From Sanderia malayensis (Eukaryota; Cnidaria; Scyphozoa; Semaeostomeae; Pelagiidae), in the NCBI GenBank assembly GCA_013076295.1, contig RQOL01000024.1, positions 4,107,158-4,171,157 of the forward strand: a stretch of DNA of 64,000 nt, given 5' to 3'. The position numbers and the translations under genes were made by a program. The notes beneath the pieces were generated by a model. It was not told the origin of the DNA and made no database searches. It saw only the letters and a list, made by a program, of their open reading frames with translations. This document shows, piece after piece, positions 31,657 to 63,888 of the stretch (position 1 is its first letter; the number at the start of each line of letters is the position of its first letter).

Positions 31657-34600
31657 TTATGTATCAGGATGCTTCTTTTTATAATCACTGATCCATTTGG
31701 CTGATGGTGCTGTCAAGGCATTCACAAATGTGCCCCCACTACCTTCCACATAGAGATCAACTTTTGTTGGCTTCGGCTTGGGTGGATCACGTGAAACAAA
31801 TAGTGAAGCAATCGCAAGTGCAATACCAATAATGGCGCACACAATGCCGATGATTGGAATGCAAGCTACTTCGACAAACAACCCAACGGCTGCAGCGATT
31901 GTGGCCACACCCAACGTTATACCCTGCAGAGAAAGTTTATTAAAAATTTCTTGCTTGTATTGATATCAGTGTGATCCTCAGTATATTTTCATACATGTGC
32001 AGTGGTAAAAAATATTCTTGTAAGTCCTATGCGAGCACCAGGAGAGCTACGTTTTTGTGGCATGTGGAATTAAATTATTTTCGGCAAGTTAATATACTAA
32101 CTATTAAATTATGAATTTTAATCATGGGAAAAATAAATTAATCAAATTAAAATAGCTTGTGAAACAAAATGTGTTTTGTTCAACGAGTTGGATTTTTACT
32201 TGTAAAAGCTCTAATGCAAGAAAGGAACAAGAACAGCTTTCGTTTTTCGCTTTTGTGTTAGGGTTAAGTGTTGTGGTTAGATTTACCTGACAAATATCCA
32301 ATGCCTTTTGTGCGACTGGGGCATCAGAACTAAAATCTCTGTATATCTGAAATCCAATAACAACACAGCCGGCAACACCTGCAATTAAACCAGTGACTTT
32401 GGCAAAGCTTTCTGTGACAGCAAACATCTTTTGCCAACCAGAGGCCATAGCTGAAACATCCTCAAGTTGGGCAGACGTTGCTTCTGCCATAGCCTGGTCA
32501 ACACCCTCCTCATCAACGCCTGAAATGTTAAGTGAGGATACTCAATTTATCTTCCACATTGTGGAAAAACATCCGCGAAAAGGTGCCCGAGAAAGTTGGT
32601 GGCAGATAGTACATGTATCTTGAGATTTAAATTTCAAAAATGAGATTAGCATCTAAGCTGACCTAAGTAGCCAATACAAGATGTTATAACCAATGGTGTA
32701 TTAAATGGTACAGTTAACTTTACTTACTCTCAATAGCAGACGTGTTACATGAACAGTTAAGAACATTAAGATAACAAATAATAACATTTGCAACAAATGA
32801 CTTACCTTCAATTCTCTCAACATTTCTGACTGTTACTTCTTCCACTTCATCGACTGTTTCTGGTTGCATTCTTGCTTTAATTTTGTCTTTGATAAATTTT
32901 AAGCTAACTTTGCCAGTCATGCAACTTGTTTTAAAATCCTCAATCATGTCAGGAACGCCAGCAATACTTTCCACCACCATATTAACGGAGTCGGCGATCA
33001 GCTGAACTTTTTGTTCTGGAGTAAGGTTTTTCCAATCCATAAAGGTTTTCAATGTGCAATATATGCTGCATATCTGAAGTGCGGAACACAGCGATACAGA
33101 AAGGAAACTAAAAGTTCCCGACTTAATTTGATTCTTTTGTTGCCATTCAGCGACACTTCCAACAAGTTTATCCCATGCATGATCACTCTTGTTTACAAAT
33201 AAGGATATAATCTCCTTTATCGTATTTGCAAACTGCGCAGACATGTCGTTGGCAATCTGCTCATTAGTTTCAGTTGACGATATGTTTAAATCTGTCATCG
33301 CAGCAGAAAGTTCAGCTTTAAGTTCATCTATGACATCTTTTGTTGCATTATCTCCACCGGCAAGAATCTTAACAATAAGTTGGCGAATGGCGTCTTCAAA
33401 AATGCTCCTGATTTCCTCTTCATTATCTTTACGACCATCAAAGAAACTGGTCATCTCATTTAATCTTGACATCAAAATTTTCCGGTAAAATTTTGGGCCA
33501 TAATCTTTATCAGGAGCCAAACAAAGCAATATCATTGTTTGCTTTTGAATAATCGACATGGTGCTAGAAACATCGGCAACAAGTGCTAGTTGACTCAGTA
33601 CTGCTGCATCATTCAGCTTATCATAAAGCTTTTTGGCCCAGTAAGGACCACCTTCAGGGGCATGAACATATTTGGCAACATCAGGGCAAGACTGAATATA
33701 AGCAATACGTGATACTGCATTGTTGGCCTTGTTGTAATCACTGTCTCTACCAAGGCAGCCAGCATCGTTGCCAGACCAGAAATAAATCAATTTATTTCTC
33801 TGCTCATCAGTGATTTTGTTCTTATAAGCTGTGCTCTCTGACAAAGCATACATCAAATTAGCATTTGCAAACTTATTTCCCAGGAAATCTTTATAAGTTG
33901 TAGCAACATTAACCATGTCTCCGTCAAGAATAGGCTTATTAGCACCCATGATATCTTCAAGAAGATCGCTGTCCATCACATATTTCATTCCATCTTGCAG
34001 CAAACTGAACGTAAGTTCATGGGTTAATTGAGAATCGGGAGGTGTAATCATATATAGTTCACCAACATTTAATGCTGATTCACTCATTGCTGCCACGGTT
34101 CCTGACATTGGTGTTGGCTGACTGTCTTCAGTCTGATCGTCTTCCTCTGCACCAACAACAGCGTCTTGTGACTGGCTTGGTTCTGACATGAGCAATGTTG
34201 GTTGCACTTCTGCGTGAATGCTACTCTTCAAGCTGGCATTTCTGGCAGATTTAAGCATCGATTGTGTGCTAACGTTCTTCTCGAGAATCCCTTTCCAAGC
34301 AAATTCATCACCTTGCATATCTGCTTTAGTTGCATCATAGGCAGTACATGTTCCACTGAATGTAGCGTAGTCCATGCTAAAGGTTCCAGAGAGCTTTGTG
34401 TAGCCAAGGTACGACCAATAATCGCTGGGCACGGCAACAGTAACTGACAGTTGGTATTTGGAATCAACACCAAAAATAACATGATGTCCAAGGTCGTCCA
34501 GAGTATCCATGGGAGGGATGCAAATTTTACCCACAGTTTGGCAGCTTCCAGAGCTGCAATCAACACCCACTTCCAGTTCTCCAAAGGCGACCCATTTCGT

Positions 34601-37600
34601 AACTGAACTAGTGGTTTGGGTTTTCGTGGGCTTTGCAACTGCCCCTTCACTTTTATAGCACTTGTACTTGTTGACATTTGCAGCAGCCTTGAAACTGGCA
34701 GACAGAAGTGACTTGCTGTCATTACGGCTTTGGGTTAATGCAACAAATCCGTGGCCTTGTTGGATATTGCCGTGCAGTTTCACTGATCCATGTTCCCATT
34801 TTCCATCGACAACATCTCTTGCCCAGCTTATGTTGTTACCATTAGAAATATGCACGTCTGGTACATGCTTGTCATCCAGAAACAAGTGTCCTCTCAGAAG
34901 AGACATCTTTTTCGGCATTGAATAGCAAGAGAGATTTTGTTCACCAACGTCATAACTCAGATCTAGGTGAGGCAAATTGATATCCTTCAGCGATTTCTTT
35001 ACTTGGCCGATGTTTTCTTTTGCCAAGCTGTTAGCCAAATGTTTCTGGGTGATTGACTTCATTGCTTTGGCGGCTCCACCTCCAAGAACTTTCTCCAAGA
35101 TCGGATCCAGACTATCCAACTTTTTTTGCAGGCTGTTCTTTTCGGCCGTTGAAAGATTATTCATTCCCTCAACAATGTTTTTTGAGGTTATCTCTGGGTA
35201 ATTCAGGCAAACCAAATAGCCATTAGCATGATACGATCGAGGACCTTCACGGAGGTGAACACCATGAACTTTGGTACCAGCTGGATATTCTTTCAAATGA
35301 ATTGATTCAATTTCAACCCATTCATAATCAATTTGGCCATTTTTGACATCCTTTATTCTTCGAACAAAGTCCCCTTCGGTAAGTTGACCAACATCCAACC
35401 AAGAATTATCATTGTTAGCCAAATGAGGATTTACAGCTCGCCAACCATCTTGTGTCCAAAATGGGTGACCAGATGTGAAAAATGGCTCACTGCCATTGAT
35501 ACCAAAAATAGCAGAGTTGTCAGCCAGTTCCTGCACAACTTTTTCGGATGAGACAATCCCAACACTTCCATTATTGCCAATGATCTTGGAATTCTCTTTC
35601 AAATCTTCAATAGCCACTGACTGAAAATCATTAAGGAGGACAGTAGTGCCACCTATGAAACAGCCAAATGGTTTATTGTGGTGTGATTTCTTAACAATGT
35701 TGTCCACCTTACGTCCAGATATCAATAGACCGTATTGCTTAGGGCCATTGCTTGAGTCCAGCCAGCTTCGAACGGCATCACCATAAGATATTTCTGTATG
35801 ATCTGTTGACATTGGGATTTCGCCAGGAAGAATGATAGGATCCGTTGTCACCCATGATTTTGTGTGAGATTTAAAGCAAGCTGCATGGATGAAGCTAGAG
35901 AACGGATGACTCAATAACCAACCTTTTACAAATAGTAAAAGGTTGTCTTTCTCCACAAAATCTTTCACTGGTTGCATCATTGCTGCACTACTTGCACTGA
36001 CCCACTTTTTCAATATTGCCTCGAATTGATGAGAGCCAAGCAATTTCAAGAAGTACAACTTCATTTTAACACACAATTCTTGCTCCATGGTTAGTTGCTT
36101 GATAAGTGTGCCACGAATGTAGGCTTCATCTTCTAAAATCTTTTCAAGTTTCTCTAGCCAAGATTGTTTGCTATTCAAGTAAGTCTGGAAACCATGCTTT
36201 GTTTTAAGTACCTCCAACAGTAAGCTAGTGCCCAGTTCCTTACCTTTGATTGAACTCACAAATTCTTCCATCTTTGTTTTAGCCATGTTTCCATTTGTTA
36301 CCTTGTCAAAGTTGTACTTTGGAACCTAATTGTAATATACAATATCTACAATTAGAAATTGTGTATAAAGTGACAATTATTTGCTAAGCGTAGCTAATGC
36401 TTTGGTCACTGCTGGTGGTCATGATATACCAGGTGGGCCAAAAAAAGTAACTTCCAAACATAATATTTTTTAGGAAAGGCATCTTCTGAATGATTTGCTG
36501 CAAATTTCTACCATACAATATTCAACCCAAAAGATATCTTGTGTAAAACAATTTTTATCGATGGCTTGTCATTTTTGAGCAATTGCAATTTTTTAATTTT
36601 TAGTCGTGAAACCTGCTGTTATAAAATTTTGTGTTTGAAAATTGACTACGTTGGAAGAGCAATCAAAAGTTATGCACCAGCTGATGCAAAATGGCGTCTG
36701 GGAATGACCCGCAGCTTGAGGAAGAAAATTTACATAACAATATATAATCAAAGGTTAATAATTAGTTCAATAATTAGTCTAGGATAGGATTTGCCTGGAG
36801 CCAAAGAGAAGAGGTGCTGATACAATGATAACCCCTATTCAAATTATAACTTGTTTTGATGCAAAGGAGGCATCTTTGAGCAATATGCCAGAAAAGTTTC
36901 GCAGGGAAAATTAGAGATCGACAATTAATTTATAAAAAGAGAGTAATCAAATAATCAAAGGAACCCTGAGGTGACCCGCGACAGATGGCTTTTATTTCAG
37001 TGTGTTATCCAGAAAGTAAAGAAAATAATATCAAATTAAAGTCAAACTTTGCGAGCCTAAAATTGAGCTTGAGCGAAACTGAATAAATAATTTTATTGAC
37101 TATTCACCTCCTATACATAAAATACTCTGGCTTTAATTTTCAGGATTGAAGGAAATTCAAAAAACATTAGTAAAACTCAAGCAAACATTTGACTTCAACT
37201 TTTGATCTTGTTTCATCAAAGTTAAAAAACTTTCATTTTCCCAAACAAAATGAAATGCTATAATTGCTGTAGAGTTGCAAAACCATACAGCTAGAAAACT
37301 TTCTTCTTTTCACCAAATGCTTCCAACAACGAGTCAAAAATGCTCCCCCCCCCGTCTCGTGCTCGTGGTCCCGCCCTGCCACAGCGTGCCCAGCGTCAAG
37401 TATGTGGTTTGTTGTTTCAACAAGTTTACATTTTATCCAATGAAAAATTTGCAAAGTGATATCATACCTGGTAGCCTCATTGCAAATCAAAAGTGAACGT
37501 TTGAATCTGAGGCACATACCTTATATGGGAAAGTAAACAGAAACACAGAACACTGACACAGAACACAACATTTTTCCCCACTCACCAACATCTACTCGCT

Positions 37601-40463
37601 TGCGCATGCGCTTCGCGAGTCAAAAACAAAATATCCAAAGCAAGTTGGTAATTGAACTTTTATCCAGACAAGGCAAGCCAAACTTGCAAACTTGTGGTTT
37701 TTTTAGTTCAACCTAATTGATACAGCAAAGACTTGTTATTAATCCACTCTCCTTTCAAGGTAATAACGAGCGCAGCATACTATATCAAAAATTGGACGCA
37801 AGTGAGACCCAAAAGAGAAAGTGAACTACTAAGTACATTTGTTGCTCCGAGTAAAAGCACTTTAGCTCAAGATTTTCAAACAAATTAATAAACTCGACCC
37901 TTAATGAAGTCTGAAACTCTACTCACGGTAGTAAGGTCGATGGAAGCAAGATCTGCCGCCAGCTCATTTCTTATAGATGTGTAACCATGCTCTCCAAAGA
38001 AAGCATTGGCTGGTGTCTTGTTGAAGAACGTGGTTGAAATCCCATCTCCGGCCTTCTTCAGAGAATCCTCCAAAACCTTCTGCATTTCTCCATTTGGCAA
38101 TGCAGTGTAAGAATCAGCAACATCAAGCAAAGATTGTACACTCTTGTAGCTTGAATACGTCCTGCGATTAAATATATATCAAGATATGAAATTGGTTTTT
38201 AGAAAGATTTGCTTCACAAGACTCTACCCTTGTTGCGATTGAATGACAACTGTTGTGAAGTCACTACATATCAAATTTGAATTTCGAATTCACAGCTGCA
38301 AACTCAACAAAATCGTTCGAAAATAAAAACGTAGTGTGTGCCATCCTGCTTATCAAAGTCTAAAAACAACATATCCAATGTCTTAGAGAAAATAAGCATC
38401 AAATTGTTGGCTTTTCGGAATTTGCTTGGAATCCATCAGACATTCTACTTTACACGTTTCATATTGTATAAGAAACCTAGCCCAAGCCCTACTAGTAAGT
38501 GTCTTACATTTTATATTGTTTTCTATTGTTAAAGTGCCTCTACACCTTATTTTTTTATTCTTTACATCGATAAAACTTTCCTTGCTGATTTTAGATCCGA
38601 AAATATTGTTTAAATCTGAGGTATAGTTAACGAGTTATAACGTGGTGAAGTGTCGATATTTCGCCATTTTCGCCATTTTTTTGGTTAACTTTTAGGACTG
38701 GGTCGATCCAACTATGACATCATAGTTGAGCCTAGTTGTGCCCCGTTCATCTTTCTGGGCATCTGACTGGATCTGAATTATTATCTTTTTGTTATGTATC
38801 TGATGAAGTAAAAGTGTGTATCAAAATTCAATATACGCAATATAATTTAGGCCATCATATCCGTGTCAGTCTAAACCTTTGGGGTTTGAAGAAGCCTGAA
38901 AAGATTCGATTTTCATTTGGAACAGCAAGTGTAGAAAATCTGCAACACAATTCCTTATTACTACACATGAATTTCGTTATTGTACCGAAATTATTGCGCT
39001 TTGGTGTTTGATTTATTTCATTCATGATGATGCGTCCATAGAATTTCTTCCGTCGTTGCGAATTGATGAAATCTATCCATCTCCTTTTTCTTACAGTTTT
39101 AGGGCGATCATCCTGATAAAGCAGAATTTTGTGAAGCCATGCAAATTCTGATTTATCGGGTGTATTTCCATGGGCTAGCAAAACACATCGATATGGCATA
39201 TTTTCCCAGTTTCACACGTAAATCTAATCTAACAATCTTTAATCATGTTTTGATGCTCTTCTTGTCATCCTCGTCCAGTTCCCATACAGTTTTAACATTG
39301 CACGGCCTACGGCCGCCGCCACTGAGCACAACGAGCAGCCACTACACGGGAATTTTGTAATTCCTCCCCACAGCTGCCAACTCATCGCAAGCCTTTCAAA
39401 CTCAAATGCCATAATGCGCCGACCTGTTTCTAATCATCAAAGTCAAAAAAACAAATATCGAGCCCATCGTGTAAGAGAAAATCGATGTCAGATTTGTTGC
39501 TTCAGTACGGGAAAATGAACGGGGCACAACTAGGCTCAACTATGATGTCATAGTTGGATCGACCCAGTCCTAAAAGTTAACCACGAAAAAGTGCCTCGTA
39601 TCTATCTCAAAAACTACTTATCATATCAAAAAAATATAAACGGATTCAAAATCAGCGAATTCGAATCTATAGTTTTAGCCAATAAAAAAAATAAGGTGTA
39701 GAGGCACTTTACAACAATAGAAGAAAGGAATCTATTGTAATTTAGCACAAATTCTACCAGTAAGTTTCTTATAAAGTGGTTTCTCATAAAAAAAGTATTA
39801 ACTGTCTAGAAAGTATAATAATGACAGTAAACGACATTTTCCAAACATTGTCCCCTCCAGATAAAAAAAACACGAAGTGACTGACTGTATGCCACTGTAA
39901 AAATCTACAGGTGCCCACCGCAGTATTTTATTCGGCTTTTCAAGGGCTCAAAACCAAGCATAAAAATACTTCTTACTTGTAGATAATACTTGTTTGTGTA
40001 TCTTTTACTGTAATTTTCATTAGTCTGCATAAAATAGGCACAGAAAGCTCTTGTTGTATTCAGAGTTTGGAACAGGAGAAATAACACTGAAGCCTTTTAC
40101 TCTTTCTTCATAAATATATACAGAACATAATATCTGGAACTAAACCGACTGTTTAGTCATACATTCAAGAATCTACTCTATCTCGTGAGTGTCTATTTCC
40201 TATCTTATCTAATCTTAATCTATTGAATTCGCTATACGTTTACCGTTAAATACCATATACCACGTGATCGTTTACGTAAATCCGTTCTCTTTAACTACAA
40301 CAACAACAACCTTTACAACAGCTCTTTCATTTATAACACAATAGGCATAGAAGGTCTCATTGTTCCATGTGAACAATTAAACTTACTTCTCAATGCGTAT
40401 CTTGTGCTCGGAGGACGTTGCTTGAAAAGCAATCTTGCCGAAATGCATCATTGGCCAATCCAT
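31657..40463 (-). CDS. Hint-domain multidomain protein, tandem copy A (1,443 aa from E1 ATG)
   Basis: Exons E1 40463-40387 (MDWPMMHFGKIAFQ), E2 38161-37927 (TYSSYKSVQSLLDVADSY), E3 36325-32806, E4 32519-32287 and E5 31923-31657 join in phase. E3 begins VPKYNFDKVTNGN before the internal Met often taken as start. Order: helical N-terminus (to about 320); Hint domain at about 326-478 with Cys after Gly (GCFIGGTTVLL), a TxxH-like block (FTSGHPFW) and YHANGYLVCLN; a module with paired cysteines (DCSSGSCQTVGKICIPP, GTCTAYDATKADMQGDEFAW); an acidic linker; a long helical region with one hydrophobic segment (FLSVSLCSALQICSIYCTL); E4 with GLIAGVAGCVVIGFQIY; E5 with two Gly/Ile-rich hydrophobic stretches, SLFVSRDPPKPKP and a short tail. 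Hint domains self-cleave in hedgehogs and inteins, so autoprocessing is plausible. Function unknown. E1 follows an acceptor site, so 5' exons may exist. Confidence 0.82.
35219..35662 (-). other. Hint (hedgehog/intein-type) domain of copy A
   Basis: This segment runs from the putative nucleophile Cys (in FGCFIGGTTVLL) through FTSGHPFWTQDGWRAV (block-B-like Thr-x-x-His) to SYHANGYLVCLN. No hedgehog signalling domain precedes it. It is strongly conserved in copies B and C, including the Cys, the TSGH and the YHANG residues. Confidence 0.75.
38523..39720. mobile_element. Fold-back element with 68-bp perfect inverted repeats, in intron of copy A
   Basis: The outer ends CTATTGTTAAAGTGCCTCTA (left) and the inverted CTATTGTTGTAAAGTGCCTC (right) match. 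Inside them, 38683-38750 and 39515-39582 are exact inverted copies over 68 bases (they start GGTTAACTTTTAGGACTGGG). The 0.76 kb core holds a decayed THAP-like reading frame. The sequence lies between E1 and E2 of Hint gene A and is absent from the equivalent intron of copy B, which is only about 0.5 kb. Confidence 0.8.
38880..39199 (-). pseudogene. Decayed THAP-like zinc-finger remnant
   Basis: The frame starts MPYRCVLLAHGNTPDKSEFA and continues LHKI..YQDDRPKTVRKRRW and DFINSQRRKKF, the style of an N-terminal THAP domain (MPxxC start, LHK/FHR-P segment, conserved W). The later Cys-x2-His pair is not where it should be, so it is broken. THAP domains are common in P-element-like transposases, which fits its place between inverted repeats. 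Recognition is by motif style. Confidence 0.45.
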
Positions 40464-44228: not shown

Positions 44229-47200
44229 TTATGTATCAGGATTTTCTTCCTTATAATCATTGATCCATGTATCTGATGGTGCCGTTAAGGCATCAACAAA
44301 GCTTCCTCCAACACCGTCCACATAGATATCAACTTTGGTTGGCTCGGGCTTGGGTGGATCACGTGAAACAAATAGTGAAGCAATCGCGAGTGCAATACCA
44401 ATAATGGCGCAAACAACGCCAATGACTGGAATGCAAGCTGCTTCGACCATCAACCCAACAGCACCAGCAATGGTTGCTACACCTAATGTTACACCCTGCA
44501 AAGAGAAGTTATTAAAAGTATCTCGCTTTGCATTGATTTATTGATAGGTGTAGTACTATTTATATCGGTAGTTTTTGAAGCATGCATTTTTGCGTGGCGC
44601 GACTGGGAACATGCATAACTTCGCTTTCGCTTGACGCATACGCCCAAATTGGTTCTCAGTAACTGAACAGTATTAATCCTTCTGTATTTTTTTCTTAAGA
44701 CCAGAAAGAACACTATTGTTCAGTACTGGTTTTCCCCTGTGGTAATATGCCACTGCAACTTTACTTGCAATACTTCCTGAAATATTAATGGGTTGAATAC
44801 AGCATTGCATAAATCAACTGACAATGAGCAAATGGTGAAAATGTGTGGTAGTTAAAACTCACAAATGTGTCAATAAAACCGTAAGCTCTAAGAAAAAGTT
44901 GCTGACTTGGATATAAATCATCTAGGCAGGGATCATTTGTTTTTAATGTAATTATTTGTTCCACCAAGGCACAAAAACTTTATAAAAATTATGTGGTTAG
45001 AATTACCTGACAAATATCCAATGACTTTTGTGCCACCGAGGCATTAGTACTGAAATCTCTGTATATCTGAAATCCAACAACAACACAGCCAGCAACACCT
45101 GCAATTAGGCCAGTGACTTCGGCAAAGCTTTCAGTGACTGCAAACACCTTCTGCCATCCGGAGACCATTTCTGGAACATCCTCAAGTTGCGCAGATGTTG
45201 CTTTTGCAATGGCCTCGTCTACACCGGCTTCATCGACAACTAAAAAACAAAGTAACAATACTCTGTTTACATTTCTGAGCAAAATGGAAGAAATGTTTGG
45301 CAAAATTGGCGGCAGATGGCACATAAACCTTGATTCAAATTTACAAATTCCTAACTGCAACTAGCATCTAAACTGGCTCGTTTATTAGCAAAATACATTT
45401 AGACACAAAATTCTGAATTGGCCAGTCCGTTGACTTTACTCTCAGCAAATCGCGCATAGTTGGGACAAAACAAAACAGCTCAAACTAAAACAATTGGGAA
45501 GAAAATAAAGCTACCTTCAATCTCCTCAACATTTTTGACTGTTGCATCTTGCACGTCATCGACTGTTGTTGACTGCATTCTTGCTTTGATTTTATTTTTT
45601 ATCAAGTCGAAGCCAAGTTTGCCATTTTCACAACTGGTTTGATAATTCTCAATTATGTCAGGAACGCCAGCAATACCTCGTATTACAAGATCCGTACAGT
45701 CAGCAATTAGCTGAACCTTTTGCTCTGGGGTAAGTGTATTCCAACTCATAAAAGTTATTATTGTGAAACATACACTGCATACCCAAAGTGATGTGCATAT
45801 TGCCACAGAAAAAAACTTGAAAGTACCTGACCATCCTGGATTTGCTTCCCGCCAATCAGCGACACTCTCAAGAAGTCTATCCCATGCAGTACCACTCTTG
45901 TTTACAAATAAGGTTACAACCTCTTTTACTGCACTTTCAAATTGGGCAGCCACATTAGTTGCAATCTCATCATTAGTTTCACTTGTCCCTATGTTCAATT
46001 CTTCTATCGTAGTCTTAAGTTCAGCACTAAGAGTCTTTGTAACTTCTGCTGTTGTGTCATCTCCGCCAGAAAGAATCTTGAGAATAAGCTGGTAGATGCT
46101 GCCTGTAAACATATCTGTAATGTCTTCTTCTTCATCCTTACTACCATTGAAGTAACTAGTCATCTCATTTAATCTAGACATCAAAATCTTCCGGTAAAAG
46201 TCTGGGCCATAATCTTCGTCAGGAGCCAAACAAAGCAATACCATTGTTTGCTTCTGAATAATTGACAAGGAATTTTCGTCAGAAATTGCCAAACCATTTA
46301 ACACTGATGCCTCAGTCAGCTTTTCATAAAGTTGTTCGGCCCAGTAGGTACTACCCTCAGAAGAATCGACATATTTGGCAAGATCCGGGCACGACTTCAT
46401 ATAAGCAATGCGAGACACTGCATTGTTGCATTTGTTGTAATCGCTGTCTGTACCAAGGCATCCTTCAACGTTGCCAGACCAGAAATAAATCAATTTATTT
46501 CTCTGCTCATCAGTGATTTTCGTCTTATAAGTTGAACTTTCTGACAAAGCGTACATCAAATTAGCATTTGCAAACTTATTTCCCAGGAAATCTTTATAAC
46601 TTGTAGCAACACTAACCATGTCTCCGTCAAGAATAGGCTTAGTAGAACCCATGATTTCTTCAAGCAGATCGCTGTCCATCATATATTTCATTCCATCTTG
46701 CAGCAAACTGAACGTAAGTTCATGGGTTGATTGAGAATCGGGAGGTGAAAGCATATATAGTTCATCAACATTCAATGCTGATTCACTCATTGCTGCCACG
46801 GTTTCTGACATTGGTGTTGGCTGACTGTCTTCCGTCTGTTCTTCTTGCTCTGCACCATCAACAGCGTCTTGTGACTGGCCTGGTTCTGACATGAGCAATG
46901 TTGGTTGCACTATTGAGTGAATACTACTCTTTAAGCAAGCTTTTCTGGCATATTGAAGCATCGATTGTGTGCTAAGATTCTTCTCGAAAATCCCTTTCCA
47001 AGCAAATTCATCACCTTGCATATCTGCTTTAGTTGCATCATAGGCAGTACATGTTCCACTGAATGTAGCATAGTCCATGCTAAAGGTTCCAGAGAGCTTT
47101 GTGTAGCCAAGGATGGACCAATAATCGTTGGGCACGGCAACAGTAACTGACAGTTGGTATTTGGAATCAACACCAAAAATAACATGATGTCCAAGGTCGT

Positions 47201-50200
47201 CCAGAGTATCCATGGGAGGGATACAAATTTTACCCACAGTTTGGCAGCTTCCAGAGCTGCAATCAACACCCGTTTCCAGTTCTCCAAAGGCAACCCATTT
47301 TGTAACTGAACTAGTGGCTTTGGCTTTCGTGGGCTTTGCAACTGCCCCTTCACTTTTATAGCACTTGTACTTGTTGACATTTGCAGCAGCCTTGAAACTG
47401 GCAGACAAGAGTGACTTGCTGTCATTACGCCTTTGGGTTAATGCAACAAATCCGTGGCCTTGTTGGATATTGCCATGCAGTTTCACTGATCCATGTTCCC
47501 ATTTTCCATCGACTACATCTCTTGCCCAGCTTATGTTGTTACCATTAGAAATGTGCACGTCTGGTACATGCTTGCCATCCAGAAACAAGTGTCCTCTGAG
47601 AAGAGACATCTTTTTCGGCATTGAATAGCAAGAGAGATTTTGTTCACCAACATCATAATTCAGATTTAGGTGAGGCAAATTGATATCCTTCAGCGATTTC
47701 TTTACTTGGGCGATGTTTTCTTTAGCCAAGCTATTAGCCAAATGTTTCTGAGTAATTGACTTCATTGCTTTGGCGGCTCCACCTCCAAGAACTTTCTCCA
47801 AGATCGGTTCCAGACTATCCAACTTTTTTTGCAGGCTGATCTTTTCGGCCGTTGAAAGATTATTCATTCCCTCAACAATGTTTTGTGAGGTTATCTCTGG
47901 GTAATTCAGGCAAACCAAATAGCCATTAGCGTGATACGATCGAGGACCTTCACGGAGGTGAACACCATGAACTTTGGTACCAGCTGGATATTCTTTCAAA
48001 TGAATTGATTCAATTTCAACCCATTCATAATCAATTTGGCCATTTTTGACATCCTTTATTCTTCGAACAAAGTCCCCTTCGGTAAGTTGACCAGCATCCA
48101 ACCAAGAATTTTCATTGTTAGCCAAATGAGGATTTACAGCTCGCCAACCATCTTGTGTCCAAAATGGGTGACCAGATGTGAAAAATGGCTCACTGCCATT
48201 GATACCAAAAATAGCAGAGTTGTCAGCCAGTTCTTGCACAACTTTTTCGGATGAGACAATCCCAACACTTCCATTATTGCCAATGATCTTGGAATTCTCT
48301 TTCAAATCTTCAATAGCCACTGACTGAAAATCATTAAGGAGGACAGTAGTGCCACCTATGAAACAGCCAAATGGTTTATTGTGGTGTGATTTCTTAACAA
48401 TGTTGTCCACCTTACGTCCAGATATCAGTAGACCGTATTGCTTGGGGCCATTGCTTGAGTCCAGCCAGCTTCGAACGGCATCACCATAAGATATTTCTGT
48501 ATGATCTGTTGACATTGGGATTTCTCCAGGAAGAATGATAGGATCCGTTGTCACCCATGATTTTGTGTGAGATTTAAAGCAAGCTGCATGGATGAAGCTA
48601 GAGAACGGATGACTCAATAACCAACCTTTTACAAATAGTAAAAGGTTGTCTTTCTCCACAAAATCTTTCACTGGTTGCATCATTGCTGCACTACTTGCAC
48701 TGACCCACTTTTTCAATATTGCCTCGAATTGATGAGAGCCAAGCAATTTCAAGAAGTACAACTTCATTTTAACACACAATTCTTGCTCCATGGTTAGTTG
48801 CTTGATAAGTGTGCCACGAATGTAGGCTTCATCTTCTAAAATCTTTTCAAGTTTCTCCAGCCAACATTGTTTGCTATTCAAGTAAGTCTGGAAACCATGT
48901 TTTGTTTTAAGTACCTCCAACAGTAAGCTAGTGCCCAGTTCCTTACCTTTGATTGAACTCAGAAATTCTTCCATCTTTGTTTTAGCCATGTTTCCATTTG
49001 TTACCTTGTCAAAGTCGTATTTTGGAACCTAAAAATAAAATTCAATATTTGCAATTTAGACGTAGTGGATAATCTGTAAGTTTGTTTGCTAAACATGATA
49101 ACTCGATTGGTGACTGTTGTTCATCGTGATCTGGCCATTGGTTTGTGCAGCTATCTATACACTTTATATGCCAAAATGAAGGTTTTTTTTCAAAATATGG
49201 CCGAAATAAGTCTAGAAACGAATTGAAAGAACTGCTTTCAATGTTCAATGTTTTTCGTCCAAGGCTCGTCTGGAGTGCAAACCGATATTCTTTGTAAAAA
49301 ACCATTTATAAGAAACAGTGGGGCCATATTTTCGAAACTTAAGAAACTTTGGTTGGAAATTTCCTGTGACTATGTTGTTTAGCGTGTTTAGTTTAGTTTT
49401 TTGTTCTTTGGTTACATTATAAAAAAGATTTTAGTTGTTTGCGATGGAATCAGTATTCTTTTCGCTTCTCTGTCCAATTTAACAGGCAATTTTGTTGCAG
49501 CAAAATTGTTTCTTTTCCTTTCTTGATTTGCATCGAAACGAACAAAAAGTGTTTGGTAGATCTCTCATCACATTGAAAAATGTGCGACAATTTATGAGAG
49601 TCAAACCAATTTAAAAATGAATCTCAAACTCTACTCACGGTGGTAAGGTCGATGGAAGCAAGATCTGCTGCCAGCTCATTTCTTATAGATGTGTAGCCAT
49701 GTTCCCCAAAAAAAGCATTGGCTGGTGTCTTATTGAAGAACGTGGTTGAAATCCCATCTCCGGCTCTCTTCAGAGAATCCTCCAAAATCTTCTGCATTTC
49801 TCCATTTGGCAATGTAGTGTAAGAATCAGCAACATCAAGCAAAGATTGTACACTCTTGTAGTTTGAATAAGTTCTGCGATTAAATATACATCAAGATAGG
49901 GAAATTGGTTTTTTAGGTATAGAGAGGGAGTTTACTTCACAAATGATTGTCGAATGTTGAAATTCGTGTCCAAATAAAAGTTTTGGAAAGTATTTTTGGA
50001 AACAAAACTTGATGAGAACGATGACTGTTCTCGCACCAGGTTTCCATAGGGCGTGGTCTTGAGGGGGTCATCCTCTATTATCACCCAAATGGGCGTCCAA
50101 GCCCAAGTAAGATCACAGAATAAGCAGAGAAATATTGAAAAACTCATCACTTTGTTTCACAAGCGCCGACAAATTATAACGCCACCTTTTGTTATGGTAA

Positions 50201-50449
50201 AGAGGAAAGGGCATTAGTGTTCGAGAAAGGAATATAACGTGAAATTCTACTCAGAAACTATAATTATCTGCAGAATCTTGAATAATGATCAGGAGAAAAA
50301 TGCTTAGTAGGCACAGTAACACAATAGGCATAGAAGGTCTCATTGTTCCTTGTGAACAATTAAACTTACTTTTCAATGCGTATCTTGCGCTCGGAGGAAG
50401 TTGTTTGAAAATCGGCAATCTTGCCGAAATGTATCATTGGCCAATCCAT
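44229..50449 (-). CDS. Hint-domain multidomain protein, tandem copy B (1,442 aa from E1 ATG)
   Basis: Exons E1 50449-50370 (one codon longer than A: KIADFQTTSSERK), E2 49873-49639, E3 49028-45515, E4 45239-45007 and E5 44495-44229 are in phase. The N-terminal half, including the Hint domain and single cysteine module, is nearly identical to A. The C-terminal third of E3 differs strongly from A and matches C (EMTSYFNGSKDEEEDI, IEELNIGTSETNDEIA, KSGTAWDRLLESVADW). E4 reads VDEAGVDEAIAKATSAQLED then GLIAGVAGCVVVGFQIYRDF. E5 ends TWINDYKEENPDT. The E2-E3 intron is only 0.6 kb and unrelated in most of its length to the 1.6 kb introns of A and C. Its possible 5' exons at 52.2-52.85 kb are broken, so if those exons matter the copy may be expressed differently from A. 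Confidence 0.82.
47922..48365 (-). other. Hint domain of copy B
   Basis: It has the same key residues as copy A (GCFIGG nucleophile region, TSGH, YHANG). The few replacements, such as Asp to Glu and Val to Ala in the NENSWLDAGQL loop, lie outside the motif blocks. Confidence 0.75.
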
Positions 50450-53279: not shown

Positions 53280-55620
53280 ATACTCATATATTGAAGTTCA
53301 AACTGATCTAAATATACCTCTGCACAATCAGAAACTCTTGCCATCTCTAACCGCCTTCAGAGCTTTAAACTTCTCTCAAGAAAACATAGACTGGGAAGGA
53401 TTAAGTGAGTACTTAAAGAATATAGAGTGGAAGAATGAAATGAGGAAATGCAACACAAACGAAGTATTAGACCGATTCTATTCAATTACATTTGAAGCTG
53501 CTGAAAAGTTTGTTCCCTAAAAATCTTCGTCAAATGATTCCACCAACAGAATACTCAAGTCCAAAAAGAACCTCTTAAGAAAACGTCGTCGAATAAACAA
53601 GAGGCTGGGTAGAACCAAATCTCAAAATTCAATGGATAAACTATTTAAACAACTAATTGAAATCGAAAAGTTTTTTCAAAAATCATACGAAAGATCAGAA
53701 GATTATGCGGAAAAGAAAGCATTGGATGATATCAAAATTTTTCTTCGCTTATGCGAAGAAGAAATCAAAGACCAAAACAAAAGTTGGTCCTTTGAATAAT
53801 GGACAAACCCTCACAAACCACAGTAAAGAAAAGGCTGAACTTCTTTCTTCGCAATACAAAAACGTTTTTAGTACGCCCAAACCATATGATAGCTACACTC
53901 CAAGGAAACATACAAACATCACTGATCTTGAGTTCACAGCAAATGATGTAGAAGCTGCCATTGATGAACTGGAAAATTCTTCAGCTCCTGAACCAGATGG
54001 CTTTCTTGCCATTTTTCTCAAGAACTGCAAAGAGGCTCTAGCAGAACCACTTCATCTATTTTGGAACTTATGTCTGCAAAATGGTGTAATACCGTAAAAG
54101 CTTAAACATGCGGTAATAACACCCATTACACAAAGCTGGATCTCGCTCATTACCAGCAAACTACAGACCTGTTGCTTTGACATCTCATTTAATTAAGATC
54201 TTTGAGAAAATAGTACGAAATCATCTGACATCATATCTAGATGAAAACAAGTTGTTCAATAGCAATCAACATGGGTTTCGATCAGGTCACTCCTGTCTCA
54301 GTCAACTTTTAGAGCACTATGACTCCATTTTAAAACACTTGCTGAATGGAGAAAATGTAGCTAGATGTAATTTATTTAGACTTCGCAAAAGCCTTCGACA
54401 AGGTTGACTTTGGCATCGCTCTCACTAAAGCTCATCAGCTTGGAATAGGAGGTAACACAATGAGCTTTCTTCGTGCTTTCTTAAGCCAAAGGACACAATC
54501 AGTAGTGGTCGATGGTGTATCCTTCAATCCATGTTCAGTCCTATCAGGAGTCCCACAAGGAAGTGTGCTTGGTCCACTCATCTTCTTGATACACATATCA
54601 GACATTGACAAATACCTAAATAAAAGTGTAGCAAGATCCTTTGCTGATGATACTAGGTGCACAAGAAATGTTAAAAATGTTCAGGATGTTAGTGATCACC
54701 AGAAAGAAACCAATACAATATATGACTGGGCAGCAGAATCAAATACGGATTTAAATGACACCAAATTTGAGGTATTGCGTTATGGTAATGATCATACACT
54801 GAAACTCTGTACGTCATACATCACTCCAAATGGCCAAGTTATTGCCCAGAAGAAAAATCTAAGAGATCTTGGTGTCACAATGTCTGATAACTGTTCATTT
54901 GACACACAAATCGCCAAGTCCATTGAAAAATGCAAGAAAATTATATCCTGGGTACTGCGTATATTTAAGACAAGAAAAAAGACCATATGCTACTCTTCTG
55001 GAAAATTTATCTCGTTCCTTTAATTGAGTATTGTAGCGTATTGTGGTCACCGTCAAATGCTTCATTGATCCAAAAACTAGATGCCGTTCAGTGGTTGTTC
55101 ATACGAAAGATCAAATTAGAGTCAAAAGTAAACTACTGGGAAGCCTCGAAGCACTGCAAGATCTACTCTCCTCAACGTAGACGTGAACGATACAGGATCA
55201 TCTATGTTTGGAAGATTCTGGAAGGGCTTGTGCCAAATGTCAATGACAGCATTAGATCAAACAATCATATTCGTCATGGTAGAAAGTGCATTATCAACCG
55301 AATCAATGGTAATCAAAGAAAGATTCAATCTATAGCAGAAAACAGTTTCTGTGTGAATGGCCCTAGGCTATTTAACATACTACCAAGACATATCAGAGAC
55401 ATAACTGATACTTCACTCCTCGCGTTCAAAAAGGCTCTAGATGACTTTCTGAAATTGATCCCAGATGAGCCTGAACTGGTGGGTTACACCGCAATGAGAA
55501 GAGCTGATAGCAACTCACTGGTAGATATGATCCAACATATCAGAAGGGATTGACACTAGACTGTTAATCCTTAGGTTTTTTCAACCTTTAATCATGTAAT
55601 AATAATAAAAATAGTAAATC
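53280..55620 (+). mobile_element. Dead LINE (CR1/Jockey-like), endonuclease part missing
   Basis: Plus-strand pieces in changing frames read in order: linker (DWEGLSEYLKNIEWKNEMRK), RT start (NDVEAAIDELENSSAPEPDG, normally APGPDG), DENKLFNSNQHGFRSGHSCL, then the catalytic part GVPQGSVLGPLIFLIHISDI..ARSFADDTR with the F-A-D-D core, and the thumb/C-terminus (IEYCSVLWSP, ENSFCVNGPRLFNILPRHIR) to a stop at 55553. At least four frameshifts or stops separate these blocks, and no apurinic endonuclease domain precedes them, so it is a 5'-truncated dead copy. It lies between Hint copies C and B and is absent from the paralogous spacer at 42.2-43.3 kb. Confidence 0.85.
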
Positions 55621-56515: not shown

Positions 56516-59500
56516 TTATGTTTCAGGATTTTCTTCCTTATAATCACTGATCCATGTATCTGATGGTGCCGTTAAGGCATCCACAAAGCTTCCTCCAACA
56601 CCGTCCACATAGATATCAACTTTGGTTGGCTTCGGCTTGGGTGGATCACGTGAAACAAATAGTGAAGCAATCGCAAGTGCAATACCAATAATGGCGCAAA
56701 CAACGCCAATGACTGGAATGCAAGCTGCTTCGACCATCAACCCAACAGCACCAGCAATGGTTGCTACACCTAATGTTACACCCTGCAAAGAGAAGTTATT
56801 AAAAGTCTCTTGCTTTGCATTGATTTATTGATAGGTGTAGTACTATTTATATCGGTAGTTTTTGAAGCATGCATTTTTGCGTGGCGCGACTGGGAACATG
56901 CATAACCTCGCCTTCGCTTGACACATACGCCCAAATTGGTTCTCAGTAACTGAATAATAGTGATCCTTCTGTTCTCTTCTTTTAAAACCACAAGGGTCAC
57001 TACTGTTCAGTACTGGTTTTCCCCTGTGGTAACATGCCGCTGCAACTTTACTTGCAATACTTCCTGAAATATTAATGGATTGAATACAGCATTGCACAAA
57101 TCAACTGACAGTGCGCAAATGGTGAAAATGTGTAGTAGTCAACACTGACAAATGTGTCAATAAAACCTTAAGCTCTAAGAAAAAGTTGCTGGCTTGGATA
57201 TAAATCATCTAGACAGGGATCATCGGCCCATTGAAAAGAGTAGGGAAATATTTTAAAGACCCAAATACAATTTGTGAACATGAAATTTTTGGTGATTCAC
57301 GATAATTTCACGAATCGCATGGCCTAGTGCCGGAAATGTTTCATTCGAATTTCTGCCCCATCAACGAGCGATGGTAAGGTAGTGCCTTACCAAGGCTACA
57401 ACAGGTGACGGTAGCATTTGCATTGGACACGGTACGACTACATGTCGCGGCCGCAAATAATTAAAAATACAATAAAGAAGTCAAAAATAATCTAACAATA
57501 TTCGTCATAGTCTGGGGAAAACTCCTGTATAATTATTTGTTCAACCAAGGCACAAAAACTTTATAAAAATTATGTGGTTAGAATTACCTGACAAATATCC
57601 AATGACTTTTGTGCCACTGAGGCATTAGTACTGAAATCTCTGTATATTTGAAACCCAACAACAACACAGCCGGCAACACCTGCAATTAGGCCAGTGACTT
57701 TGGCAAAGCTTTCAGTGACTGCAAACACCTTCTGCCATCCGGAGACCATTTCTGGAACATCCTCAAGTTGCGCAGATGTTGCTTTTGCAATGGCCTCGTC
57801 TACACCAGCTTCATCGACGACTAAAAAACAAAGTAACAATACTCTGTTTACATTTCTGAGCAATGTATTGTGCTAATAAACTGGCCCGTTTATTAGCACA
57901 AAACATTTAGACACAAAATTCTGAATTGGCTAGTCAGTTGATTTTACTCTCAGCATACCCCGCATAGCTTAGACAGAACAACACAGCTCAAAATAAAACA
58001 ATTGGGAAGAAAATAAAGCTACCTTCAATCTCCTCAACATTTTTGACTGTTGCATCTTGCACGTCATCGACTGTTGTTGACTGCATTCTTGCTTTGATTT
58101 TATTTTTTATTAAGTCGAAGCCAAGTTTGCCATTTTCACAACTAGTTTGATAATTCTCAATTATGTCAGGAACGCCAGCAATACTTCGTACCACAATATC
58201 CGTAGAGTCAGCAATTAGCTGAACCTTTTGCTCTGGGGTTAGTGTATCCCAGCTCATAAAGGTTTTTAATGTGACACATAGACTGCATACCCAAAGTGAT
58301 GTGCATATTGCCACAGAAAAAAACTTGAAAGTACCTGACCATCCTGGATTTGCTTTCCGCCAATCAGCGACACTCTCAAGAAGTCTATCCCATGCAGTAC
58401 CACTCTTGTTTACAAATAAGGTTACAACTTCGCTTATCGCAGTTCCAAAATGGGCAGCCATATCAGTTGCAATATCTTCATTAGTTTGACTTGTCGCTAT
58501 GTTCAACTCTTCCATTGCAGCCGTAAGTTCAGCATTAAGAGTCTTTGTAACTTCTGCTGTTGTGTCATCTCCGCCAGAAAGAATCTTGAGAATAAGCTGG
58601 TAGATGCTGTCTGTAAAAATTTCTTTAATGTCCTCTTCTTCGTCCTGACTACCATCGAAGTAACTAGTCATCTCATTTAATCTAGACATCAAAATCTTCC
58701 GGTAAAAGTCTGGGCCATAATCTTCGTCAGGAGCCAAACAAAGCAATACCATTGTTTGCTTCTGAATAATTGTCAAGGAATTAGAAGTTTCGTCACTAAT
58801 TGCCAAACCATTTAACACTGATGCCTCAGTCAGCTTTTCATAAAGTTTTTCGGCCCAGTAGGGACCACCCTCAGAAGAATCGACATATTTGGCAAGATCC
58901 GGGCACGACTTTATATAAGCAATGCGAGACACTGCATTGTTGCATTTGTTATAATCGCTGTCTGTACCAAGGCATCCTTCATCGCTGCCAGACCAGAAAT
59001 AAATCAATTTATTTCTCTGCTCATCAGTGATTTTCGTCTCATAAGTTGAACTCTCTGACAAAGCATACATCAAATTAGCATTTGCAAACCTATTTCCCAG
59101 GAAATCTTTATAAGTTGTAGCAACATTAACCATGTCTGCGTCAAGAATAGGCTTAGTAGAACCCATGATTTCTTCAAGCAGATCGCTGTCCATCACATAT
59201 TTCATTCCATCTTGCAGCAAACTGAACGTAAGTTCATGGGTTGATTGAGCATCGGGAGGTGTAATCATATATAGTTCATCAACATTTAATGTTGATTCAC
59301 TCATTTCTGCCACGGTTCCTGACATTGGTGTTGGCTGACTGTCTTCAGTCTGATCGTCTTCCTCTGCACCATCAACAGCGTCTTGTGACTGGCTTGGTTC
59401 TGACATGAGCAATGTTGGCTGCACTATCGCGTGAATGCTACTCTTTAAGCTGGCAATTTTGGCAGATTTCAGCAAAGATTCTGTATTGAGACTTTCCTCG

Positions 59501-62500
59501 AGAATCCCCTTCCAAGCAAATTCATCACCTTGCATATCTGCTTTAGTTGCATCATAGGCAGTACATGTTCCACTGAATGTAGCATAGTCCATGCTAAAGG
59601 TTCCAGAGAGCTTTGTGTAGCCAAGGTACGACCAATAATCGCTGGGCACGGCAACAGTAACTGCCAGTTGGTATTTGGAATCAACACTAAAAATAACATG
59701 ATGTCCAAGGTCGTCCAAAGTGTCCATGGGAGGGATGCAAATTTTACCCACAGTTTGGCAGCTTCCAGAGCTGCAATCAACACCCATTTCCAGTTTCCCA
59801 AACTCAACCCAGTTTGTAACAGAACTACTTTCCTGCGACACTTCACTTTTGTAGCACTTATAGTTGTTGAAATTGTCTGCAGATCCGTCTATAGCGTCTT
59901 GAGACTGGCCTTCTACTAACATAGCTACTGCTGGTTTCACTACTGCGTGAATGCTGCTCTTCAAGCTAGCCTTTCTGGCATATTTAAGCATCGATTGTGT
60001 GCTAAGATTCTTCTCGAGAATCCCTTTCCAAGCAAATTCATCACCTTGCATATCTGCTTTAGTTGCATCATAGGCAGTACATGTTCCACTGAATGTAGCA
60101 TAGTCCATGCTAAAGGTTCCAGAGAGCTTTGTGTAGCCAAGGTACGACCAATAATCGCTGGGCACGGCAACAGTAACTGACAGTTGGTATTTGGAATCAA
60201 CACCAAAAATTACATGATGTCCAAGATCGTCCAAAGTGTCCATGGGAGGGATGCAAATATTACCCACAGTTTGGCAGCTTCCAGAGCTGCAATCAACACC
60301 CGTTTCCAGTTCTCCAAAGGCAACCCATTTCGTAACTGAACTGGTGGTTTGGGTTTTCGTGGGCTTTGCAACTGCTTTTTCACTTTTATAGCACTTGTAC
60401 TTGTTGACATGTGCAGCGGCCTTGAAACTGGCAGACAGAAGTGACTTGTTGTCATTACGGCTTTGGGTTAATGCAACAAATCCGTGGCCTTGTTGGATAT
60501 TGCCATGCAGTTTCACTGATCCATGTTCCCATTTTCCATCGACTACATCTCTTGCCCAGCTTATGTTGTTACCATTAGAAATGTGCACGTCTGGTACATG
60601 CTTGTCATCCAAAAACAAGTGTCCTCTGAGAAGAGACATCTTTTTCGGCATTGAATAGCAAGAGAGATTTTGTTCACCAACGTCATAACTCAGATCTAGG
60701 TGAGGGCAATTGATATCCTTCAGCGATTTCTTTACTTGGCCGATGTTTTCTTTTGCCAAGCTGTTAGCCAAATGTTTCTGAGTAATTGACTTCATTGCTT
60801 TGGCGGCTCCACCTCCAAGAACTTTCTCCAAGATCGGTTCCAGACTATCCAACTGTTTTTGCAGGCTGTTCTTTTCGGCAGTTGAAAGATTATTCATTCC
60901 CTCAACAATGTTTTGTGAGGTTATCTCTGGGTAATTCAGGCAAACCAAATAGCCATTAGCATGATAGGAACGAGGACCTTCACGGAGGTGAACACCATAA
61001 ACTTTTGTACCAGCTGGATATTCTTTCAAATGAATTGATTCAATTTCAACCCATTCATAATCAATTTGGCCATTTTTGACATCCTTTATTCTTCGAACAA
61101 AGTCCCCTTCGGTAAGTTGACCAACATCCAACCAAGAATTATCATTTTTGGCCAAATGAGGATTTACAGCTCGCCAACCATCTTGTGTCCAAAATGGGTG
61201 ACCAGATGTGAAAAATGGCTCACTGCCATTGATACCAAAAATAGCAGAGTTGTCAGCCAGCTCTTGCACAACTTTTTCGGATGAGACAATCCCAACATTT
61301 CCATTGTTACCAATGATCTTGGAATTCTCTTTCAAATCTTCAATAGCCACTGACTGAAAATCATTAAGGAGGACAGTAGTGCCACCTATGAAACAGCCAA
61401 ATGGTTTATTGTGGTGTGATTTCTTAACAATGTTGTCCACCTTACGTCCAGATATTAATAGGCCGTATTGCTTGGGGCCATTGCTTGAGTCCAGCCAGCT
61501 TCGAACGGCATCACCATAAGATATTTCTGTATGATCTGTTGAAATTGGGAATTGTCCAGGAAGAAGGATAGGATCAGTGGTCACCCAAGACTTTGTGTGA
61601 GATTTAAAGCAAGCTGCATGGATGAAGCTAGAGAACGGATGACTCAATAACCAACCTTTTACAAATAGTAAAAGGTTGTCTTTCTCCACAAAATCTTTCA
61701 CTGGTTGCATCATTGCTGCACTACTTGCACTGACCCACTTTTTCAATATTGCCTCGAATTGATGAGAGCCAAGCAATTTCAAGAAGTACAACTTCATTTT
61801 AACACACAATTCTTGCTCCATGGTTAGTTGCTTTATAAGTGTGCCACGAATGTAGGCTTCATCTTCTAAAATCTTTTCAAGTTTATCCAGCCAAGATTGT
61901 TTGCTATTCAAGTAAGTCTGGAAACCATGCTTTGTTTTAAGTACCTCCAACAGTAAGCTACTGCCCAGTTCCTTACCTTTGCTTGAACTTAAAAATTCTT
62001 CAATCTTTGCTTTAGCCATGTTTCCATTTGTTACCTTATCAAAGTTGTACTTTGGAACCTAATAGTAATATACAAAATCTACAATTAGAAATGGTGTATA
62101 AAGTCGCAATTATTGGCAAAACGTAGCCAATGTTTTGGTCACTGGTGGTGATCATGATATACCAGGTGGGCCAAAGAAAATAACTTCCTAAACAAAATAT
62201 TTTTTCGGAAAGGCATCTTGTGAAAAATTTGCTGCAAATTTCTATCATGTAATATTTAACCCACAAGACATTTAGTGTAAAACTTTTTTTTATCGATAGC
62301 TTGTCATTTTTGAGCAATTGCAATTTTTTAATTTTTAGTCGTGAAACCTGCTGTTGTGACATTTTTCGTTTGAAAATTGACTACGTTGAAAGAGCAATCA
62401 AAAGTTATGCACCACCTGATGCAAAATTGCGTCCGGGAGTGACCCGGAGCTTGAGGAAGAACATTTACATAACAATATATAATCAAAGGTTAATAATTAG

Positions 62501-63888
62501 TTCAATAATTAGTCTAGGATAGGATTTGCCTGGAGCCAAAGAGAAGAGGTGCTGATACAATGATAACCCCTATTCAAATTATAACTTGTTTTGATGCAAA
62601 GGAGGCATCTTTGAGCAATATGCCAGAAAAGTTTCGCAGGGAAAATTAGAGATCGACAATTAATTTATAAAAAGACAGTAATCAAATAATCAAAGGAACC
62701 TTGAGGTGACCCGCGACAGATGGCTTTTATTTCAGTGTGTTATCCAGAAAGTAAAGAAAATAATATCAAATTAAAGTCAAACTTTGCGAGCCTAAAATTG
62801 AGCTTGAGCGAAACTGAATAAATAATTTTATTGACTATTCACCTCCTATACATAAAATACTCTGGCTTTAATTTTCAGGATTGAAGCAAATTCAAAAAAC
62901 ATTAGTAAAACTCAAGCAAACATTTGACTTCAACTTTTGATCTTGTTTCATCAAAGTTAAAAAACTTTCATTTTCCCAAACAAAATGAAATGCTATAATT
63001 GCTGTAGAGTTGCAAAAGCATACAGCTAGAAAACTTTCTTCTTTTCACCAAATGCTTCCAACAACGAGTCAAAAATGCTCCCCTCCCCGTCTCGTGCTCG
63101 TGGTCCCGCCCTGCCACAGCGTGCCCAGCGTCAAGTATGTTGTTTTTGTTTCAACAAGTTTACATTTTATCCAATGAAAAATTTGCAAAGTGACATCATA
63201 GCCTCATTCCAAATCAAAAGTGAACGTTTGAATCTGAGGCACATACCTTATATGGGAAAGTAAACAGAAACACAGAGCACTGACACAGAACACAACATTT
63301 TTCCCCACTCACCAACATCTACTCGCTTGCGCATGCGCTTCGCGAGTCAAAAACAAAATTTCCAAAGCAAGTTGGTAATTGAACTTTTATCCAGACAAGG
63401 CAAGCCAAACTTGCAAACTTGTGGTTTTTTTAGTTCAACCTAATTGATACAGCAAAGACTTGTTATTAATCCACTCTCCTTTCAAGGTAATAACGAGCAT
63501 AGCATACTATATCAAAAATTGGACGCAAGTGAGACCCAAAAGAAACAGTGAATTACTAAGTACATTTGTTGCTCCGAGTAAAAAGCATTTTAGCTCAAGA
63601 TATTAAACAAATTAATAAACTCGACCCTTAATGAAGCCTGAAATTCTACTCACGGTGGTAAGGTCGATGGAAGCAAGATCTGCCGCCAGCTCATTTCTTA
63701 TAGATGTATAACCATGCTCTCCAAAAAAAGCATTGGCTGGTGTCTTGTTGAAGAACGTGGCTGAAATCCCATCTCCGGCCTTCTTCAGAGAATCCTCCAA
63801 AATCTTCTGCATATCTCCATTTGGCAACGCAGTGTAAGAATCAGCAACATCAAGCAAAGATTGTACACTCTTGTAGCTTGAATACGTC
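56516..63888 (-). CDS. Hint-domain multidomain protein, tandem copy C (5' exon outside window)
   Basis: Exons E2 63888-63654, E3 62058-58023, E4 57820-57588 and E5 56782-56516 are in phase; E1 should lie just beyond 64,000. E3 is about 520 bases longer than in A and B because the cysteine module is present twice (first unit about 60.4-59.94 kb, second about 59.87-59.41 kb). The N-terminus and the 1.6 kb E2-E3 intron match A almost base for base. The C-terminal third, E4 and E5 match B (KSGTAWDRLLESVADW, EGSFIFFPIVL beyond the donor, DKxx replaced by YKEENPET at the end). The E4-E5 intron holds about 300 extra bases compared with B. Domain order and hydrophobic C-terminal segments are otherwise as in A. 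Confidence 0.82.
57224..57527. other. About 300-bp insertion in the E4-E5 intron of copy C
   Basis: Flanking sequence matches the copy B intron closely (GACAGGGATCAT on the left, AATTATTTGTTC on the right), but here about 300 bases intervene that B replaces with TTGTTTTTAATGT. The insert has more CG dinucleotides than its surroundings, including CATGTCGCGGCCGC. No terminal repeats or ORF are obvious. Confidence 0.6.
59410..60405 (-). repeat. In-frame tandem duplication of the cysteine module in copy C
   Basis: Two units of roughly 174 codons, both beginning YKCYKSE and containing WV(A/E)FG(E/K)LE, GVDCSSGSCQTVG, CIPPMDTLDDLGHHVIF, VAVPSDYWSYLGYTKLSGTF, GTCTAYDATKADMQGDEFAW and ending SSIHA(V/I)V. 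The centres of the units are nearly identical at DNA level, whereas the edges (linker and C-terminal helix) differ. Copies A and B have a single unit. Confidence 0.88.
60952..61395 (-). other. Hint domain of copy C
   Basis: It retains the GCFIGG, TSGH and YHANG blocks seen in A and B. Minor replacements occur (for example HLAKNDNSW and VYGVHLREG). Confidence 0.75.

Follow-up and report, generated by a model that had tools for sequence, protein, structure and literature searches.

A tandem array of large Hint-domain genes with membrane-like C-terminal exons in the jellyfish Sanderia malayensis, and its relatives in fungi, Volvox and bacteria

The best-known Hint domains of animals are those of hedgehog and its relatives. 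Further Hint proteins are described in passages of three sources, i.e., the BIL2 domain of Tetrahymena BUBL1, located between ubiquitin-like domains (PMC8616854), VWA-Vint proteins, which are common across eukaryotes and probably intracellular (PMC2362128), and the two-domain AIG1-Hint proteins of Glomeromycotina, an expanded eukaryotic Hint family (PMC8778642). Here, we analyze 64,000 nucleotides of the Sanderia malayensis genome (assembly GCA_013076295.1, contig RQOL01000024.1, positions 4,107,158 to 4,171,157), called the window in the following. Its minus strand holds three consecutive spliced genes (c1, c2, c3), each with one open frame. They belong to a Hint family that is expanded in this animal genome and also has members in fungi, green algae and bacteria, the Hint being a fixed part inside a membrane-type protein. 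The family is easily overlooked, as EukProt models skip the Hint as an intron and the Pfam signal is weak. With a probability of about 0.5, we favor a Hint that cuts before its Cys, a C-terminal fragment with an action on or in membranes, and an N-terminal part that restrains or targets this fragment until cleavage.

Compared to the Hog part of hedgehog, the family shows no match to the Pfam Hedge domain (window copies and 24 members searched), no evident secretion signal in c1 and c2 as judged by hydropathy, a NYPEIT motif of its own, and about 960 residues with hydrophobic segments after the Hint. This agrees with the first-pass annotation, made from the letters alone, which had stated that the proteins are not hedgehog. 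BIL2 (6y75) differs by a terminal Asn143, as given in its record title, and no ubiquitin-like domain was matched in the family. The likeness to VWA-Vint proteins includes their wide eukaryotic spread, a probably intracellular location and a sub-threshold Pfam Vint match of the window copies; a VWA domain was matched neither in the 24 members nor in a further set of four proteins (two of them new). Expansion of a Hint family is shared with AIG1-Hint proteins, but AIG1 was not matched in the window copies or the 24 members. A Hint between front and back parts is also found in polymorphic toxins of bacteria that use a HINT autopeptidase, and the array copies resemble these in having a similar front and a divergent back. 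In contrast to them, the Hint of the family is located about one third into the protein. Matches to toxin domains did not exceed chance level; one of the 24 members matched a MafB toxin at E 0.052.

All gene models were rebuilt from the window and show GT-AG intron borders at matching positions across the three copies. They encode 1,443 (c1), 1,442 (c2) and at least 1,589 amino acids (c3, without its first exon), and thus match the earlier account of three adjacent genes for proteins of about 1,440 to over 1,550 residues. In both c1 and c2, the coding sequence starts with a short exon, continues with an exon of 235 bases and a long one of 3.5 kb (exon B), and ends with two short exons (233 and 267 bases). 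For c3 we find the same exon set but a long exon of 4.0 kb, since its Cys-containing module (Cys/barrel module) is duplicated in tandem (60342-59876 and 59826-59363, 89% identical). Given its splice phase, the first exon of c3 must be outside the window. The short first coding exon (MDWPM...), which was absent from the first-pass annotation and lengthens c1 and c2, was identified by a pattern search (2 matches vs. 0 in 100 shuffles). Pairwise amino acid identities of c1-c3 are 85-93% with a ratio of nonsynonymous to synonymous divergence (dN/dS) of 0.35-0.38. That is, c1-c3 are genes under selection rather than chance open reading frames. The EukProt proteins P0004 and P0015 match c3 and c2, respectively. 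Since the EukProt models of array copies (P0004, P0010, P0015) skip the Hint as an intron, the domain is hidden from annotation.

The predicted structure shows the Hint beta fold. Its nearest structures are inteins and BIL domains with BIL2 (6y75) being the closest one, i.e., by this prediction the domain is a member of the Hint fold and thus of the hedgehog/intein superfamily. The Hint domain called in the first pass is therefore real by the very check, structure prediction, that had been named for it. Because the Hint of the window copies is sub-threshold in sequence libraries, structure prediction provides the confirming evidence, and we consider this fold test stronger than the sequence-score test with regard to Hint membership. 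In the proposed check with Pfam Hint models, the window copies stay below the cut-offs; matches among the 24 members are found for Hint_2 (9 members, best E 5.4e-6), Vint (4) and Hint (4).

Conservation was assessed using an alignment (A2) of 73 rows, i.e., the long exon of c1 plus 72 proteins out of the 83 collected (P0004-P0086). Hint-less models, fragments or near-duplicates were omitted (P0004, P0010, P0015, P0030, P0039, P0041, P0042-P0046). The nucleophilic block-A Cys is present in 70/71 rows having a residue at the site, the remaining one showing Ser. It is preceded by Gly, Ser, Thr or Ala in 70/71 rows (Gly in c1). The block-B His is found in 72/72 rows and YHAN in 73/73; the window copies carry both the block-A Cys and TSGH in block B. 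The Cys, TxxH-like and HAN blocks reported beforehand are recovered across A2, with the Thr being kept less strictly (see below). At the other end of the domain, residue 374 falls opposite the terminal Asn of inteins as judged from the range ends of the structural alignments, where we take the aligned chain-end residues of the intein structures to be this Asn, except for BIL2, whose record title names it. Residue 374 is Asn in 0/73 rows, and the splicing end of Asn plus Cys, Ser or Thr is seen neither in this register nor in the one shifted by one residue. In line with the first-pass annotation, the genes are no normal intein host. With Cys and His kept and no such end, the first Hint step appears to be retained and splicing lost, as in hedgehog.

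About 960 residues with hydrophobic segments follow the Hint. Directly behind it we find a helical pair (exon-B residues 379-439), and further on a beta-barrel-like domain, which in c1 shows a weak likeness to the factor-H-binding-protein barrel, a helical region and C-terminal exons that look membrane-like. The cysteine module, helical region and hydrophobic C-terminal exons are thus present in the layout given by the first-pass annotation. The N-terminal part matched no known domain in library searches and is less conserved than the Hint. No secretion signal is evident at the N-termini of c1 and c2 by hydropathy (best 10-mer 0.66 and 0.73, respectively; hydropathy only, no signal-peptide program).

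The 184-Mb source assembly was searched for further copies. A fourth array copy (L030 on G000:C155) adjoins c1-c3 outside of the window, and contig C616 shows nine gene-sized matches and one stop-containing fragment, 35-41% identical to c1. The EukProt proteins P0021-P0024 are identical across the tree region to four of the C616 copies; together with the matches of P0004 and P0015, this identifies the source as one of the eukaryotes covered by EukProt. Compared to c1, exon A of the fourth array copy has a frame break while its later exons are open, which may reflect an allele, decay or an assembly error. Among all four array copies, synonymous divergence (dS) is 0.01-0.18 within exon-B residues 1-690 (N-terminal part, Hint, barrel). 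For residues 871-1338 (helical and membrane part), 5/6 pairs show values of 0.25-0.75, with 0-0.10 for c2 vs. c3. Within the first two exons (residues 1-120), c2 is somewhat further from c1 and c3 (dS about 0.2). Such a front/back mosaic would be expected if gene conversion had acted on the front half or if back halves had been exchanged.

Relatives were collected by a first search (39 proteins) and a profile search (39, four of them new), each scoring the 7,992 best-sharing candidates, as well as by a search that was centred on the Hint and started from a Fusarium member (50 proteins). Search words covered the front 500 residues in the former two and the Hint in the latter, such that Hint-less relatives could be missed. 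Within this scope, all relatives aligned in A2 carry the Hint, and at an identical position. Relatives are found in the clam Tegillarca granosa, in Volvox africanus and V. reticuliferus, and in various fungi including ascomycetes; two of the fungal genera are presumably basidiomycetes. In the first search, 88% of the query is covered by the best local alignment with Volvox P0032, compared to 25% with the fungal P0033-P0035, for which the likeness beyond these 25% rests on the profile alignment. UniProt names some fungal members Hint-domain proteins, i.e., their Hint domain is already known; the open-access literature searched yielded no account of the family. The Tegillarca proteins P0027 (KUTeg_009144) and P0030 (KUTeg_009143) have consecutive gene numbers and a contig of the same size, and the family is thus probably arranged in tandem there, too. 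KUTeg_009143 also shows a tetraspanin match, perhaps due to a gene-model error.

Using strict patterns on a GTDB-based collection, we found two relatives, one in Taibaiella soli and one in a Lachnospiraceae metagenome-assembled genome (a fragment on a 3.8-kb contig). The T. soli protein of 1,417 amino acids is encoded by one open reading frame (L009, 2215-6468) on a 360-kb contig and is matched over residues 259-1412, its best segment being 26% identical. The gene sits among ordinary-looking bacterial genes and is followed by an opposite-strand frame that is TetR-like by eye; immunity genes, as expected beside a polymorphic toxin, may nevertheless be present. Among 394 genomes drawn from the family of Taibaiella, one carries a relative, namely Taibaiella itself. 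No relative was found in IMG/VR under the strict-pattern test. Given the relatives in fungi, Volvox and T. soli, the initial view of an animal system is not supported. In a tree of 86 rows, rooted at midpoint only and with several long branches, the two bacteria group together (100/99) and Volvox joins the fungi (49 rows, 95/84). The window and C616 copies join Tegillarca and other kin (35 rows), with support of 92/78 being below the strong mark. The patchy spread of the family suggests horizontal transfer.

In the favored mechanism, the c1-c3 proteins would be made without an evident secretion signal, with the Hint as a fixed internal part of large proteins. The Hint would fold and convert the peptide bond ahead of its nucleophile (Cys326 in c1, Gly before it) to a thioester, which would then be broken by water or another nucleophile. 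The products would be a helical N-terminal fragment (about 325 residues) and a C-terminal one (about 1,118 residues) beginning with the Hint. With the Asn-plus-Cys/Ser/Thr end missing, no splicing is proposed. The C-terminal fragment would comprise the helical pair, beta domains, the long helical region and several hydrophobic segments, of which the terminal hairpin would insert into a membrane. Before cleavage, the N-terminal part would either keep this fragment inactive or target it. The gene models, the Hint fold, the conserved catalytic residues, the lack of a splicing end, the hydrophobic C-terminal region and the mosaic of the array are computed results. Cleavage, order of events and membrane insertion are what we infer here, and a release of the N-terminal part from a membrane-inserting part by cleavage is plausible in view of the conserved residues. 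Gasdermins provide a comparison, in that a cut frees a membrane-active part; the family differs from them by a C-terminal membrane part and a built-in domain that would make the cut.

Several observations weigh against this mechanism. The window copies stay under the Pfam cut-offs (best Vint 14.7 bits vs. 27, Hom_end_hint 13.3 vs. 32.1). The block-B Thr is kept in 62/72 A2 rows and replaced in 10 (L 7, S 2, M 1), and all nine C616 copies show Leu, Met or Ser in its place. The Cys is kept in 11/13 genomic copies, with Ser in L014 and Gly in L022 (paralogues on C616). That is, Hint activity is not required in every copy. Asn375, found in 71/73 rows and followed by Tyr in 72/73, is a possible terminal Asn with the register shifted by one; acting as such, it could enable a second cut at the other Hint end. 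The N-terminus of some fungal members is fairly hydrophobic (10-mer maximum of up to 2.15), such that secretion is possible there. The hydrophobic segments may be a simple membrane anchor, and the predicted model of P0024 shows per-block confidence (predicted local distance difference test, pLDDT) of 37-79 for residues 981-1120. Finally, half-gene conversion patches are also found in ordinary tandem arrays.

Reading the C-terminus as an anchor only leads to a membrane-anchored precursor that would release or modify its N-terminal part, with the Hint passing this fragment on to a nucleophile, either a lipid (hedgehog) or an amine (BIL2). We regard this as possible, if on the unlikely side. N-terminal chemistry kept without a splicing end is hedgehog-like, and passages of two sources agree with a transfer, i.e., BIL2, the closest fold, joins a ubiquitin-like domain to lysine (PMC8616854), and the helical pair 379-439 is placed where hedgehog has its sterol-recognition region (PMC2362128). 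On the other hand, the part to be passed on has no known domain match and is conserved less than the Hint, and c1 and c2 show no evident secretion signal by hydropathy.

The loss of the block-B Thr (10/72 rows) and of the Cys (2/13 genomic copies) would also fit a mainly structural Hint, i.e., a thioester that is reversible or never formed and a protein that works uncut. Furthermore, the YHAN..NYPEIT stretch is conserved in A2 to the same degree as the Cys. We consider this unlikely, since Cys (70/71), His (72/72) and the small residue before Cys (70/71) are kept as expected if selection maintains a bond that can be cleaved. An intein within a host gene, intact or as a remnant, is highly improbable despite the fold nearest to inteins and BIL domains and the nearly invariant Asn375, given that residue 374 is never Asn (0/73), that Asn375 precedes Tyr (72/73) with no Asn-Cys/Ser/Thr in either register, that no endonuclease domain was matched in the window copies and 24 members, and that the Hint is in the same place in aligned relatives.

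Coming back to the Hint cut as a trigger of membrane action, patchy cross-kingdom spread, gene expansion and the front/back mosaic together suggest a role in conflict or cell death, which is speculative. Taken further, the proteins would be self-armed, cytosolic, membrane-permeabilising executioners across kingdoms, where the Hint cut frees a C-terminal membrane-inserting body and the membrane half diversifies within arrays whose front and Hint stay uniform. We deem this full scenario a long shot. If true, bacteria, fungi, algae and animals would share an effector of innate immunity or cell death that has spread between them and is switched by an intein-fold module.

Table 1. Coordinates of the array genes and their protein parts within the window.
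Feature	Position	Strand	Remarks
Gene copy c1	31657..40463	-	exons 40463-40387, 38161-37927, 36325-32806, 32519-32287, 31923-31657
Gene copy c2	44229..50449	-	exons 50449-50370, 49873-49639, 49028-45515, 45239-45007, 44495-44229
Gene copy c3	56516..63888	-	exons 63888-63654, 62058-58023, 57820-57588, 56782-56516
Hint domain of c1	35198..35662	-	exon-B residues 222-376; the nucleophile, Cys326 of the protein, has its codon at 35662-35660
Hint domain of c2	47901..48365	-	residues as in c1
Hint domain of c3	60931..61395	-	
Beta-barrel-like domain of c1	34283..34705	-	exon-B residues 541-681; includes the cysteine module of the first-pass annotation
Internal tandem duplication of Cys/barrel module in c3	59363..60342	-	
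Helical region of c1	32806..34111	-	exon-B residue 739 to exon end; holds hydrophobic segment 1 (protein residues 1178-1196)
Penultimate exon of c1	32287..32519	-	carries hydrophobic segment 2 (residues 1316-1334)
c1 last exon	31657..31923	-	hydrophobic hairpin (residues 1359-1377 and 1379-1397), then Pro-rich tail

Further features of the window lie between or beside the array genes, and the receptor, homeodomain and P450 among them fit an animal genome. Between c2 and c3, open frames of a reverse-transcriptase element are located at 53218-55553 on the plus strand (RVT_1 at E 1.1e-15 for 54361-55023), of which two other tested frames gave no Pfam match. Overlapping open frames at 42437-43265 (plus strand) are possibly derived from a mobile element; the tested frame 42437-42802 showed no Pfam match. 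On the minus strand, a class C G-protein-coupled receptor is encoded by a single long open frame at 25477-28176, with matches to ANF_receptor and 7tm_3 and a sub-cut-off one to NCD3G. Finally, a homeodomain match at 8473-9609 (minus strand) is slightly under the Pfam cut-off, and 1746-2147 (minus strand) holds the beginning of a cytochrome P450.
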